DNA of 64,000 nt from assembly GCF_000016285.1 (NCBI RefSeq), contig NC_011989.1, positions 2,607,001 through 2,671,000 of the forward strand. The letters run 5' to 3'. The notes beneath the pieces are model-generated. The model made no database searches and was not told the DNA's origin. It worked only from the letters and a program-made list of their open reading frames with translations. Every line of letters starts with the position of its first letter. The first letter of the stretch is position 1. This document shows, in pieces, positions 1 through 37,669 of the stretch. Made by a program: the position numbers and the translations under genes. Source of the DNA: Allorhizobium ampelinum S4 (GTDB taxonomy: Bacteria; Pseudomonadota; Alphaproteobacteria; Rhizobiales; Rhizobiaceae).

Positions 1-428
1 CGGAGAAGATTTTGCAGGAGCGGCTGTTTGCCAAGGATAATGTCAAGGTCCTCTGGAACACCGTCATCGATGAAGTCACCGGCATCCCGGCCAAGCCGCC
101 AATGCCGCCATCGGTGACCGGCGTGCGGCTGAAGAACCTCGACAGCGGCATCGTCACCGATACCCCCATCGACGGCGTCTTCGTCGCCATTGGCCATGCG
201 CCGGCGGTGGAACTGTTCACGGGCAAGCTGAAATTGAAGCCAAATGGCTATCTGTGGACCGCCCCGGATTCGACCGCGACCGACGTGCCCGGCATTTTTG
301 CCGCCGGCGACGTGACGGATGATATCTACCGCCAGGCTATTACTGCTGCCGGCATGGGCTGTATGGCCGCCCTTGAGGCAGAACGTTATCTTGCCGCGGA
401 GATTATCCCGGCTCAGGCCGCGGAGTGA
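1..428 (+). CDS. trxB: Thioredoxin-disulfide reductase, C-terminal part
   Basis: The reading frame enters from the left edge, so only the last ~140 residues are present. They form the end of a flavoprotein pyridine-nucleotide disulfide reductase: the strand-turn region around VFVAIGHAP and the FAD-binding signature GIFAAGDVTD followed by YRQAITAAGMGCMAALEAE, typical of the TrxB C-terminus. The redox CxxC lies in the missing part. TrxB uses NADPH to reduce thioredoxin in the cytoplasm. The stop is 4 bp before the downstream LysR gene, so the two are probably cotranscribed, matching the rhizobial trxB-lsrB order. Confidence 0.93.
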   Translation, partial: EKILQERLFAKDNVKVLWNTVIDEVTGIPAKPPMPPSVTGVRLKNLDSGIVTDTPIDGVFVAIGHAPAVELFTGKLKLKPNGYLWTAPDSTATDVPGIFAAGDVTDDIYRQAITAAGMGCMAALEAERYLAAEIIPAQAAE

Positions 429-432
429 GGGC

Positions 433-1350
433 ATGATGCGAGGCAGCAGCAATATACCGCTGGATTGGGACAAATTGCGGATTTTCCACGCCGCAGCCGA
501 AGCCGGGTCCTTTACCCATGCGGCAGATAAGCTGCATCTCTCACAATCGGCAATCAGCCGACAGGTGAGCGCGCTGGAGCAGGATGTGGGGGTGAAGCTG
601 TTTCACCGCCACGCCCGGGGCCTCATTCTGACCGAACAGGGCGAATTGCTCTATCGCACCGCCCATGACGTGCTGCTGAAGCTGGAAACAGTGAAAATGC
701 AGCTGACTGAGACCACCGAAAAGCCGAGCGGCAAGCTGCGCGTCACCACCACGGTCGGGCTTGGCCAGGGCTGGTTGACTGACAAGGTGCAGGAGTTCCT
801 GCAACTTTACCCTGATATGTCGATCCAGCTGATCCTCGACAACGAGGAACTGGACGTCAACATGCGCCACGCCGATTGCGCCATCCGGTTGCGCCAGCCG
901 CAGCAATCGGACCTGATCCAGCGCAAGCTGTTTACCGTGCATATGCATGTCTATGCCGCGCCCTCCTATATCAATCGCTATGGGGAGCCGCAGACCATCG
1001 AGGATCTCGATAACCATCGGATCATCAGCTTTGGCGAACCAGCGCCCAATTACCTGCTTGACGTTAACTGGCTGGAAGTGGCCGGGCGCTCCTCCGACAA
1101 TCGCCGGATTCCCCATCTGCAAATCAACAGCCAAACCTCGATCAAGCGCGCCTGCCTGCTGGGCATAGGGGTCGCCTGCATGCCCGATTACATTGTCGGA
1201 CGCGATCCGGGGCTAATTCAGTTGCCGATCAATGCCGAAGTTCCGTCCTTTGATACCTATTTCTGCTATCCGGACGAGATGAAAAATGCGGCCAAGCTAA
1301 AAGTTTTCCGCGACTTCATCGTCAGCAAGGCGCGCAACTGGAATTTCTGA
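433..1350 (+). CDS. lsrB: LysR-type regulator, LsrB/VtlR-like
   Basis: A 305-residue LysR-type regulator: winged HTH at residues 10-70 (FTHAADKLHLSQSAISRQVS) and a periplasmic-binding-like effector domain from ~100. I chose ATG 433 because GGAGTGAGGG lies just upstream and the HTH then starts at the normal distance; the frame is open back to 319 inside trxB. Position after trxB and in front of tandem AbcR-type sRNAs matches rhizobial LsrB (VtlR in Brucella and Agrobacterium), known as a redox/LPS regulator and an activator of AbcR-class sRNAs. Cysteines at 149, 241, 249 and 278 could be redox-sensitive; three fall close to positions I recall for Sinorhizobium LsrB. The orthology is an inference from context. 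Confidence 0.9.
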   Translation: MMRGSSNIPLDWDKLRIFHAAAEAGSFTHAADKLHLSQSAISRQVSALEQDVGVKLFHRHARGLILTEQGELLYRTAHDVLLKLETVKMQLTETTEKPSGKLRVTTTVGLGQGWLTDKVQEFLQLYPDMSIQLILDNEELDVNMRHADCAIRLRQPQQSDLIQRKLFTVHMHVYAAPSYINRYGEPQTIEDLDNHRIISFGEPAPNYLLDVNWLEVAGRSSDNRRIPHLQINSQTSIKRACLLGIGVACMPDYIVGRDPGLIQLPINAEVPSFDTYFCYPDEMKNAAKLKVFRDFIVSKARNWNF

Positions 1351-1469: not shown

Positions 1470-1518
1470 TGCATGCCTCCTATGCACAAAAAAGCATTGT
1501 TCACTGCACAAAAAACCA
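1470..1518 (+). promoter_or_regulatory. Putative LysR (LsrB/VtlR) sites and promoter of first AbcR sRNA
   Basis: TGCAT-N7-ATGCA at 1470-1486 is an inverted repeat of LysR-box type. TGCACAAAAAAGCA (1483-1496) is repeated almost exactly at 1505-1518, 22 bp (two helical turns) further on. A plausible -35 TTGTTC (1497-1502) and -10 CATATC (1520-1525), 17 bp apart, place the sites directly upstream of and inside the promoter, suitable for activation. Binding by the neighbouring regulator is inferred. Confidence 0.5.
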
Positions 1519-1531
1519 CCATATCGCTCAT

Positions 1532-1647
1532 AGCTGATGCACACGGTGGCTTCCTCCCAGTTCCCACCGCACCAGCTGTTCCCCTCTGGAGGTTTTTAAC
1601 CTTCACACTTTAAGGGCCCTGGAGTAATCCGGTGGCCCCTTTTTTTT
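1532..1647 (+). ncRNA. abcR1: AbcR-family small regulatory RNA (first copy)
   Basis: About 116 nt. Stem-loop 1 pairs CGGTGG (1544-1549) with CCACCG (1564-1569) and exposes CCTCCCAG in the loop, an anti-Shine-Dalgarno motif. A conserved core follows, AGCTGTTCCCCTCTGGAGG (from 1574), then a small hairpin AGGTT/AACCT and ACCTTCACACTT. An intrinsic terminator ends it: GGGCC-CTGGA-loop-TCCGG-GGCCC (1614-1638) plus T8. The core recurs in the RNA 200 bp downstream. AbcR RNAs are Hfq-dependent repressors of ABC transporter mRNAs in Rhizobiales, and tandem copies are typical. Numbering as 1 versus 2 is arbitrary; the 5' end is estimated from the promoter. Confidence 0.82.
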
Positions 1648-1703
1648 GGCTTTTTTCTTTTTGGGTCCTCGTTTTTACGGGGAGCAAACTTTTGCACGCA
1701 CCC

Positions 1704-1733
1704 TTGAAAGTTCTAAGGATTGATCTATATAAT
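1704..1733 (+). promoter_or_regulatory. Promoter of second AbcR sRNA
   Basis: TTGAAA at 1704-1709 and TATAAT at 1728-1733, spaced 18 bp, form a near-consensus sigma70-type promoter. Transcription would begin around 1740, just before the ATAGTT/AACTAT stem. No copy of the TGCACAAAAAA repeat is seen here, so the two sRNAs may be regulated differently. Confidence 0.65.
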
Positions 1734-1739
1734 TGCATA

Positions 1740-1839
1740 GTTGCGGAGAAACTATCATTGGTAGTTTTTTGTAGCTGTTCCCCTCTGGAGGTTTGACGAC
1801 CTTCACACTTGAAGCATCCGTTCGCGGGTGCTTTTTTTT
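1740..1839 (+). ncRNA. abcR2: AbcR-family small regulatory RNA (second copy)
   Basis: About 100 nt. The 5' stem (ATAGTT/AACTAT around 1736-1755) differs from copy one and has GCGGAGA in its loop. The central block AGCTGTTCCCCTCTGGAGG (from 1773), the AGGT/ACCT mini-hairpin and ACCTTCACACTT (1799-1810) are shared with copy one; the hairpin loop sequence differs while pairing is kept. The terminator is AAGCATCCG-TTCG-CGGGTGCTT (1812-1833) with a T8 run. The distinct 5' loop suggests an overlapping but not identical target set. Confidence 0.82.
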
Positions 1840-1868
1840 GGCCGCTCCAAAAACAGAGGTCACCTCTC

Positions 1869-1913
1869 TTGATATCGGATTTTTACGATCCATATATCGT
1901 TCATGGACGATAT
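1869..1913 (+). promoter_or_regulatory. Promoter/operator overlapping the arsR-type start
   Basis: A perfect inverted repeat, ATATCGT-N6-ACGATAT (1894-1913), covers the region of the start codon of the ArsR-type gene. TTGATA (1869-1874) and CATATA/ATATAT (1891-1897) resemble -35 and -10 boxes. The regulator probably represses its own operon here. Transcription would begin near 1903, so the mRNA may be leaderless or nearly so. Confidence 0.55.
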
Positions 1914-2238
1914 GAATTCTGACACGCTGGAAGATCTTGGCAAGCCGGACATGGATGACGCGCTGAAAGCGCTGTCGCATCCTGTTCGGCGTGAGATCTT
2001 GCAATGGCTGCGCGAACCGGAAAAGCATTTCAGCGATCAGGCTCATCCGCTGGAAATGGGCATTTGCGCGGGGCAGTTCGAGCGCTGCGGCCTGTCGCAA
2101 TCCACCGTATCGGCCCATCTCGCGAGCCTTCACAAGGCCGGACTGATCACCTCACACAAGGTCGGACAATGGATTTTCTACAAGCGGGACGAGGCAGCCA
2201 TTGCTGCTTTTCTATCCCGGCTATCGTTGGAACTCTGA
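1903..2238 (+). CDS. ArsR-family transcriptional regulator
   Basis: A 111-residue winged-HTH protein: LKALSHPVRREILQWL opens the domain and LSQSTVSAHLASLHKAGLI is the recognition helix region. Two cysteines (C55, C62) flank the recognition helix in GICAGQFERCGLSQS, which suggests thiol or electrophile sensing rather than the classic metal sites. The start may be 1903 or the in-frame ATG at 1912; neither has a clear Shine-Dalgarno. It lies 45 bp before an Old Yellow Enzyme gene, so the likely model is an electrophile-responsive repressor of its own operon. The ligand is not known. Confidence 0.88.
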   Translation: MDDMNSDTLEDLGKPDMDDALKALSHPVRREILQWLREPEKHFSDQAHPLEMGICAGQFERCGLSQSTVSAHLASLHKAGLITSHKVGQWIFYKRDEAAIAAFLSRLSLEL

Positions 2239-2283: not shown

Positions 2284-3399
2284 ATGGCCACTCTTTTCGA
2301 CCCCTTGCAAGTTGGCGATATCGCCGTTGCAAACCGCATCGCCATGGCGCCACTGACGCGCAACCGCTCTCCCAATGCCGTTCCAAAGCCAATCACCGCC
2401 ACCTATTACCAGCAGCGCGCCACCGCCGGTCTGCTGATCACCGAAGCCACGGCTATTTCTCATCAGGGCCAGGGTTATGCCGATGTTCCGGGTCTCTACA
2501 CGCCTGAAGCCCTTGAAGGCTGGAAGGCCGTCACCAAGGCGGTGCATGAGGCGGGCGGCAAGATCGTCACCCAGCTCTGGCATGTCGGTCGCATTTCCCA
2601 TACGTCGCTTCAGCCAAATGGCGGCAAGCCGGTTGCACCTTCGGCGATCACCGCCAAGGGCAAGACCTATGTGATCAATCCGGATGGCAGCGGTGCGTTT
2701 GTCGACACTTCCGAGCCCCGCGCCTTGGAACTCTCGGAAATCCCCGGCCTGATCGAGGATTACCGCAAGGCCGCGCGCGCCGCCATTGATGCCGGTTTTG
2801 ACGGCGTCGAAATCCATGCCGCCAACGGTTATCTGCTGGAACAGTTCATGCGGCTGAGCAGCAATCAGCGCAGCGATGCCTATGGCGGTTCGATTGAAAA
2901 CCGTATCCGCCTGACGATTGAGGTCGTCCAGGCCGTGACCCGCGAAATCGGCAGCGGCCGCACCGGCATCCGCCTTTCGCCAGTCACGCCCGCCAATGAC
3001 GTTTCAGATCCCGATCCGCAATCGGTCTATACCACGCTGGTGGAAAAGCTGGCGGCCTTCGATCTGGCCTACATTCACGTGATCGAGGGTGCGACCGGCG
3101 GCCCGCGTGATTTCAGCCAGGGCGACAAGCCCTTCGACTGGGATGCCTTCAAGGGCGCCTACAGCAATGCGGGCGGCAAGGCCGTCTGGATCGGCAATAA
3201 CGGCTATGACCGGCAGATGGCCATGGATGCCATTGCGTCAGGCAAGGTCGACATGGTCGCCTTCGGCAAGCCCTTCATCGCCAACCCGGATCTGGTGCGT
3301 CGCCTGAAGGAAGATGCACCATTGAACGAAGCCGACCAGAGCACATTCTACGGCGGCGGAGAAAAGGGCTATATCGACTATCCGACACTCGACGACTGA
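2284..3399 (+). CDS. Old Yellow Enzyme family NADH:flavin oxidoreductase
   Basis: A 371-residue FMN-dependent ene-reductase of the NemA/XenA/OYE family. The (beta/alpha)8 fold starts with LFDPLQVGDIAVANRIAMAPLTR. The catalytic motif HAANGY gives H178 and N181 for substrate activation and Y183 as proton donor; GYLLEQF and DAYGGSIENR are family signatures. Such enzymes reduce activated C=C bonds of N-ethylmaleimide, quinones, enones and nitro compounds using NAD(P)H. The start has GAAGGAC upstream. It is the second gene of the arsR-type operon and is followed by a strong terminator. Confidence 0.93.
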   Translation: MATLFDPLQVGDIAVANRIAMAPLTRNRSPNAVPKPITATYYQQRATAGLLITEATAISHQGQGYADVPGLYTPEALEGWKAVTKAVHEAGGKIVTQLWHVGRISHTSLQPNGGKPVAPSAITAKGKTYVINPDGSGAFVDTSEPRALELSEIPGLIEDYRKAARAAIDAGFDGVEIHAANGYLLEQFMRLSSNQRSDAYGGSIENRIRLTIEVVQAVTREIGSGRTGIRLSPVTPANDVSDPDPQSVYTTLVEKLAAFDLAYIHVIEGATGGPRDFSQGDKPFDWDAFKGAYSNAGGKAVWIGNNGYDRQMAMDAIASGKVDMVAFGKPFIANPDLVRRLKEDAPLNEADQSTFYGGGEKGYIDYPTLDD

Positions 3400-37219: not shown

Positions 37220-37669
37220 TTGTCTGAAACCGTAGTCATTCGCCCCGCAACGTTCGATGATCTGGAGGCCTTGCTGGCACTCTACAAGGACTTAAGCAGC
37301 AACAACGATTTTACCGACGTTGAACGGGTGCATAACACCTATGCAGCGATTCTCTCCCACCCTGGCCTGACGGTATTCGTTGCTCTCGACCGAGAAAGAC
37401 CCGTAGCAACGGCTAGTTTGCTGATAACCCCCAACCTGACGCGCGGTTGCCGACCTTATGCTCTGATCGAGAATGTCGTCAGCGCTGCGACGCATAGAGG
37501 CCAGGGCTATGGCCGAGCGGTCGTTCTCCATGCCATCGACGCCGCCTGGAATGCTGACTGCTACAAGGTCATGCTGCTGACAGGCAGCACACGTCCCGAA
37601 ATCCACCACTTCTACGAAGCCTGCGGCTTTGTCCAGAACAAGACCGGCTATCAGATCCGCCGCACGTGA
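37220..37669 (+). CDS. GNAT-family N-acetyltransferase
   Basis: 149 residues. The acetyl-CoA loop is HRGQGYGRAVVLHAI, with FYEACGFVQNKTGY at the C-terminal end. The acceptor is unknown. TTG 37220 is the likely start, 15 bp after the YcxB-like gene, so they may be cotranscribed. Confidence 0.85.
   Translation: MSETVVIRPATFDDLEALLALYKDLSSNNDFTDVERVHNTYAAILSHPGLTVFVALDRERPVATASLLITPNLTRGCRPYALIENVVSAATHRGQGYGRAVVLHAIDAAWNADCYKVMLLTGSTRPEIHHFYEACGFVQNKTGYQIRRT

Follow-up and report, generated by a model that had tools for sequence, protein, structure and literature searches.

Why would a LysR-type regulator be followed by two sibling small RNAs and have a candidate binding site in front of only one of them? 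This is the arrangement described for the locus by the original prediction, which supposed that the adjacent regulator acts on one copy. In the window, by which we mean the whole 64,000-nucleotide stretch analysed here, the regulator gene lsrB/vtlR (433..1350, plus strand; 305 aa) lies directly 3' of trxB and 5' of abcR1-abcR2. Its assignment rests on Pfam HTH_1 and LysR_substrate matches above their cut-offs and on published synteny; of the NCBIfam LysR models displayed for the product, none reaches its cut-off. The upstream neighbour is the 3' part of trxB, encoding thioredoxin reductase (3..428, plus strand; Pfam Pyr_redox_2 above cut-off), whose best NCBIfam model, thioredoxin-disulfide reductase, scores under its cut-off because the window edge cuts the gene. 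Downstream lie genes for an ArsR-family regulator (1903..2238, plus strand; Pfam HTH_5 and NCBIfam HTH_metalloreg above cut-off) and, by Pfam/NCBIfam searches, a NemA-type flavin oxidoreductase (2284-3399). The order trxB-vtlR-abcR1-abcR2-arsR is also that of A. tumefaciens C58 (PMC7486931), and the window locus is the standard rhizobial AbcR module, an arrangement already known in relatives. For comparison, 80 lsrB loci were kept of 471; their LysR-type products are 92-100% identical to that of the window, and the closest named loci belong to Agrobacterium vitis and Allorhizobium.

Are the two RNAs what they were taken to be? A search with the AbcR covariance model, proposed along with the original prediction, was run and supports both: the abcR1-type sRNA (1532..1646, plus strand) matches Rfam ar15 (RF02345, AbcR family) at 1532-1644 with 105.4 bits, and the abcR2-type sRNA (1739..1840, plus strand) matches the same family at 1739-1837 with 56.8 bits, against a gathering cut-off of 40. 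Elsewhere in the 64 kb there is no further gathering-level Rfam match, the only others being lower-scoring same-clan overlaps at the two copies. Both RNAs fold better than their shuffles (z of -2.98 for abcR1 and -4.14 for abcR2), each into three hairpins of which the last is a Rho-independent terminator. The common anti-Shine-Dalgarno core with differing 5' stems is likewise seen in both copies: abcR1 has the M1 loop UCCUCCC and the M2 core, followed by a terminal hairpin and U run, and abcR2 has M2 only, no UCCUCCC, and its own terminator, found by a terminator scan at 1811-1834.

One structural claim did not survive. The mini-hairpin had been described as covarying. Both window copies have one and the same 7-bp stem, UGGAGGU/ACCUUCA, and they differ at the apical pair alone, which is U-A in one and U-G in the other. 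Among homologous mini-hairpins (the 60 commonest of 76 distinct forms were tabulated) changes are mostly one-sided. We therefore reject covariation as evidence: the sequence of the mini-hairpin is conserved and its covariation is unsupported. Rfam scanning of 20 of the 80 lsrB loci gave 40 ar15 matches, and two of the lsrB loci (L034, L068) have three tandem ar15 copies.

What, then, distinguishes the promoters? The palindrome TGCAT-N7-ATGCA (1470..1486, plus strand) is the candidate LsrB/VtlR box; its GCAT, at 1471, is at -61 if the abcR1 RNA starts at 1532. The form published for LsrB/VtlR is GCAT-N3-TG-N3-T, which in S. meliloti occupies -61 to -49 of PabcR1 (PMC8844928). Six of these seven fixed bases are present in the window site, which has TC for TG, a substitution that also sets it apart from the box of the C58 system (PMC7486931); the wider form GCAT-N8-TGCACAA is matched in full. 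The repeat TGCACAAAAAA occurs first at 1483..1493 (plus strand), where it shares bases with the palindrome's right half, and again at 1505..1515 (plus strand), 22 bp further downstream, in the -35/-10 spacer; these are its sole occurrences on either strand of the 64 kb. Palindrome and spaced repeat are thus present as originally reported, and within the tandem they occur at the first copy only. The core promoter of abcR1, probably of the sigma-70 type, reads TTGTTC-N17-CATATC (1497..1525, plus strand) and is weak by consensus: it was read by eye from the sequence, the consensus promoter scan having failed to find it, and its location is that of the PabcR1 core in PMC8844928.

The spacing of the repeat recurs at lsrB-linked promoters. 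Of 145 distinct lsrB-linked promoters with a box, 122 have the half-site TGS.CA at +22 and 21 have it at +15; no other offset between 14 and 30 accounts for more than 2. We infer that the second repeat may be another point of contact for LsrB, at a distance of two helical turns. At dispersed boxed promoters (18 distinct) the +22 half-site is weak, with TGS.CA in 2/18 and CGC in 10/18; at +15, TGS.CA is found in 8/18.

The abcR2 promoter is of another kind. It reads CTTGAA-N16-CTATAT, one base shorter than the RpoH1 consensus CTTGAA-N16-CCTATAT, and the same segment (1703..1733, plus strand) can also be read as TTGAAA-N18-TATAAT, which agrees with sigma-70 at 11/12 positions, so that dependence on RpoH is not certain. 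In Sinorhizobium, RpoH1 drives abcR2 from an RpoH1-type promoter at PabcR2 (PMC8844928). The view that the two copies have different promoters holds, a probable sigma-70-type core at abcR1 standing against an RpoH-like promoter at abcR2.

How general is a box at the first copy? Among the 80 lsrB loci, GCAT-N8-TGCNCAA is in place at 69 first copies, distributed by locus type as 68/74 with two copies, 1/4 with one and 0/2 with three; nine of the 11 first copies without it have TGCATAA instead, and the published form of the box is in place at 64/80. The second copy is also boxed in 48 of the 74 two-copy loci, and we reject the generalisation that just one copy has an LsrB site. Where the second copy has no box, a promoter of the CTTG plus TATA type is found in 21 of 27 cases.

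Within the genus the picture is sharper. In 60 same-genus genomes, that of the window included, 86 of 117 ar15 copies are boxed, each exactly 61 nt upstream. The box is present at 17/17 tandem first copies, at 0/17 tandem second copies and at 69/83 of the remaining copies; the 117 matches passed stricter filters by which weak AbcR2-like copies were lost, so the 83 apparently single copies mix lsrB-linked and dispersed ones. The pattern used for the genus, GCAT-N8-TGCNNAA before TTCCCC, gave 107 matches, 21 of them away from any ar15 match, as against 2 for the pattern reversed as a control. On these data the LsrB box of the genus narrows to a core of GCAT-N8-TGC, placed exactly at -61. Across the family, GCAT-N8-TGCNCAA before TTCCCC matched in 37 of 151 genomes, a lower bound since this pattern misses TGCATAA boxes, and several of the matches are plainly not ar15; this search does not establish conservation outside the genus.

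Experiments in relatives bear directly on the supposition that the neighbouring regulator acts on one tandem copy. In A. tumefaciens, VtlR binds PabcR1 and activates abcR1, not abcR2 (PMC7486931), and in S. meliloti AbcR1 needs LsrB while AbcR2 does not (PMC8844928). The original observation is right in its main point and largely known, its inference being established in these two relatives. The S. meliloti pair resembles the one described here in lying in tandem beside lsrB, in a box at -61 to -49 and in an RpoH1-type PabcR2 (PMC8844928, PMC3712013), but both of its sRNAs are described as having two anti-Shine-Dalgarno motifs (PMC8844928, PMC3712013), whereas the AbcR2 of the window has no UCCUCCC. 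In this it is like the AbcR2 of C58, which has no M1 (PMC7486931).

Could both tandem copies nevertheless answer to LsrB, the second through read-through or through an unrecognised site? The two are 94 nt apart on one strand, no abcR1 terminator appears in the output of the terminator scan, and many two-copy relatives have the second box just described (48/74). Against this, abcR1 does end in a hairpin, GC-rich and bulged, followed by a T run; upstream of abcR2, GCAT-N8-TGCACAA is absent even with one mismatch allowed; the second tandem copies of the genus are box-less without exception (0/17); and in A. tumefaciens unlabelled PabcR2 is no competitor for VtlR (PMC7486931). Taken together, this makes shared control by LsrB improbable at this locus. 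That some other regulator binds the palindrome, whose nearness to lsrB would then be incidental, we regard as more improbable still. The match to the published LsrB box is imperfect and the LysR box (T-N11-A) is generic, but the distance is 61 nt in every one of the 86 boxed copies of the genus, in agreement with the position reported for LsrB (PMC8844928), and gel-shift data document LsrB/VtlR binding in two relatives (PMC7486931, PMC8844928).

Might the elements be chance matches in AT-rich intergenic DNA? Judged from the window alone they might: with at most one mismatch, GCAT-N8-TGCACAA matches once, against a mean of 1.97 in shuffled sequence, so the window lends the box no statistical support, and we reject window statistics as an argument for it. 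A second TGCAT-N7-ATGCA occurs at 37329-37345 within a 149-aa ORF, and this occurrence is probably chance; the ORF product looks acetyltransferase-like by eye, a putative assignment. Support for the box is instead comparative, since all four strict matches (GCAT-N7-W-TGCACAA) in the 6.3-Mb genome are at ar15 promoters and the reversed control gives 0. The relaxed N8 box gives seven among the matches listed, the three extra ones not at ar15. The place of the box is constant across relatives as well, with the 86 genus boxes all at 61 nt, and chance, already contradicted by these two counts, is scarcely credible as an explanation.

We therefore return to LsrB acting on abcR1 and not on abcR2. By this model, which for this organism is extrapolated from its relatives, LsrB/VtlR would bind the palindrome, whose centre is about 54 nt before abcR1, make a further contact at the half-site two helical turns (22 bp) downstream of it, and recruit RNA polymerase to the weak sigma-70 promoter, so producing AbcR1. 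The 5' loop of AbcR1 (UCCUCCC) and its second motif (CCCCUCUGGAGG) would then cover the ribosome-binding sites of nutrient-uptake mRNAs, which would be silenced with Hfq. AbcR2 would be a diverged sibling with an RpoH-like promoter, without the LsrB box and without the UCCUCCC loop; its own promoter and these two absences suggest that it answers to a different signal and has kept the second motif alone. Three more AbcR1-type copies on other replicons would also be driven by LsrB. As a whole, a standard AbcR module in which LsrB acts on abcR1, abcR2 has an RpoH-like promoter and the extra copies are LsrB-driven is very probably the correct description.

The extra copies qualify the claim of a site at one copy only, which stands for the tandem and fails for the genome. 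There are five ar15 copies in the genome, three of them outside the window, on replicons of 631,775, 258,824 and 211,620 bp. We take these replicons of 632, 259 and 212 kb to be pAtS4e, pTiS4 and pAtS4c. All three dispersed copies carry GCATAGGTGCRTTGCACAA, and each has the box 61 nt upstream. The alternative of classing these copies as ar14 was rejected, as cmscan calls them ar15. Three extra boxed copies on other replicons are a feature of the window genome.

Where else do such copies occur? At its promoter the copy on the 259-kb replicon has the same sequence as one on pTiCG78 (258,841 bp); the copy on the 632-kb replicon is similar to a pRvVAT039a copy (99.5% over the 186-base query), and that on the 212-kb replicon to one on a plasmid of A. 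vitis F2/5 (98.3% over 86% of the query). A similar stretch is found in 385 of 72,556 plasmid records, of which 270 are typed conjugative. For 165 of the 385 records, a single place covers at least 80% of a query that begins at the first base of the box. Thirteen regions of named plasmids, picked by hand from 385 and 378 records and mostly better matches rather than a sample, all hold an ar15 match, and ten show the box-plus-core pattern. The other three are one with ACAT for GCAT (L163) and two missed by a pattern that requires the core too (L164, L168). Three of the 13 regions are from Ti plasmids (pTiCG78, pTi_CFBP2681 and pTi_Tun180), and all three show the pattern. The pTiCG78 ar15 copy is just 5' of a pair that the record annotates as RelE/ParE-type toxin and XRE regulator (L119:4062-5064), and just downstream of two plasmid ar15 copies there is a DUF3800-VI cis-regulatory RNA motif (RF02915; L002:1725-1776, 40.1 bits, and L159:1786-1837, 44.7 bits). 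Plasmid ar15 genes have been catalogued before, with A. vitis S4 named, in the legend to Figure S1 of PMC3712013. What the present analysis adds is the LsrB boxes at plasmid copies, which go unmentioned in the passages of PMC3712013 consulted. A search of literature titles and abstract openings found no link between plasmid AbcR copies and LsrB, which is not proof of absence.

Do the dispersed copies keep the targets of AbcR1? There are 15 PF13458 matches, and the one protein searched against the PDB (encoded in L177) has 3ip5 as its best match. We presume 3ip5 to be the GABA receptor Atu2422. The AbcR1 loop CUCCCAGUU is complementary over 9 nt to AACUGGGAG in the leader of this 3ip5-like gene, in a predicted duplex. 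Predicted energies with this leader are -16.8 kcal/mol for the abcR1 loop and -6.2 kcal/mol for that of abcR2; the dispersed 5' loops give -15.0 (Ti-like), -15.1 (212-kb) and -8.8 kcal/mol (632-kb). The respective value is reached by 2% of shuffled leaders for abcR1, 6.8% for the Ti-like copy, 7% for the 212-kb copy, 61% for the 632-kb copy and 87% for abcR2, percentages that give modest support to the abcR1 pairing and weak support to the others. Of the three dispersed copies, two thus retain pairing of M1 to the leader of the GABA-type binding protein, which is weak when judged against shuffles, and pairing of M2 to the leader is no better than with shuffles. AbcR1 is known to silence atu2422, and a link to quorum quenching has been proposed (PMC4231840).

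The box reaches beyond ar15. The genome has six copies of ar14 (RF02344, the NfeR1 family), and GCAT-N8-TGC lies upstream of three of them (L170, L172, L174), 93-96 nt before the Rfam start. NfeR1 of S. meliloti is activated by LsrB and has anti-Shine-Dalgarno motifs, as does AbcR1, but it belongs to this other Rfam family, outside the window locus (PMC10746234). With boxes at ar14 too, several anti-Shine-Dalgarno sRNAs appear to be marked in this way. Two of the boxed ar14 copies (L170 and L172) stand directly after DUF1127 genes (L122, L123), and the small-protein targets published for VtlR might lie in DUF1127-ar14 loci of this sort.

What does this arrangement mean for the organism? The genome very likely has a two-signal design, in which one sibling answers to the redox regulator LsrB and the other has a heat-shock-type promoter. 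Among the leads, the plasmid copies with a box are the best and are worth following. A tentative reading, which we hold to be doubtful, is that conjugative plasmids, Ti plasmids included, carry boxed AbcR1-type copies that tap the LsrB of the host and add to the silencing of host amino-acid and GABA uptake; as quorum quenching in Agrobacterium is believed to be fed by GABA uptake, quorum-controlled transfer of the plasmid itself would be favoured. With the box kept by plasmid siblings, the idea that plasmids join an sRNA regulon of their host can be put to the test.
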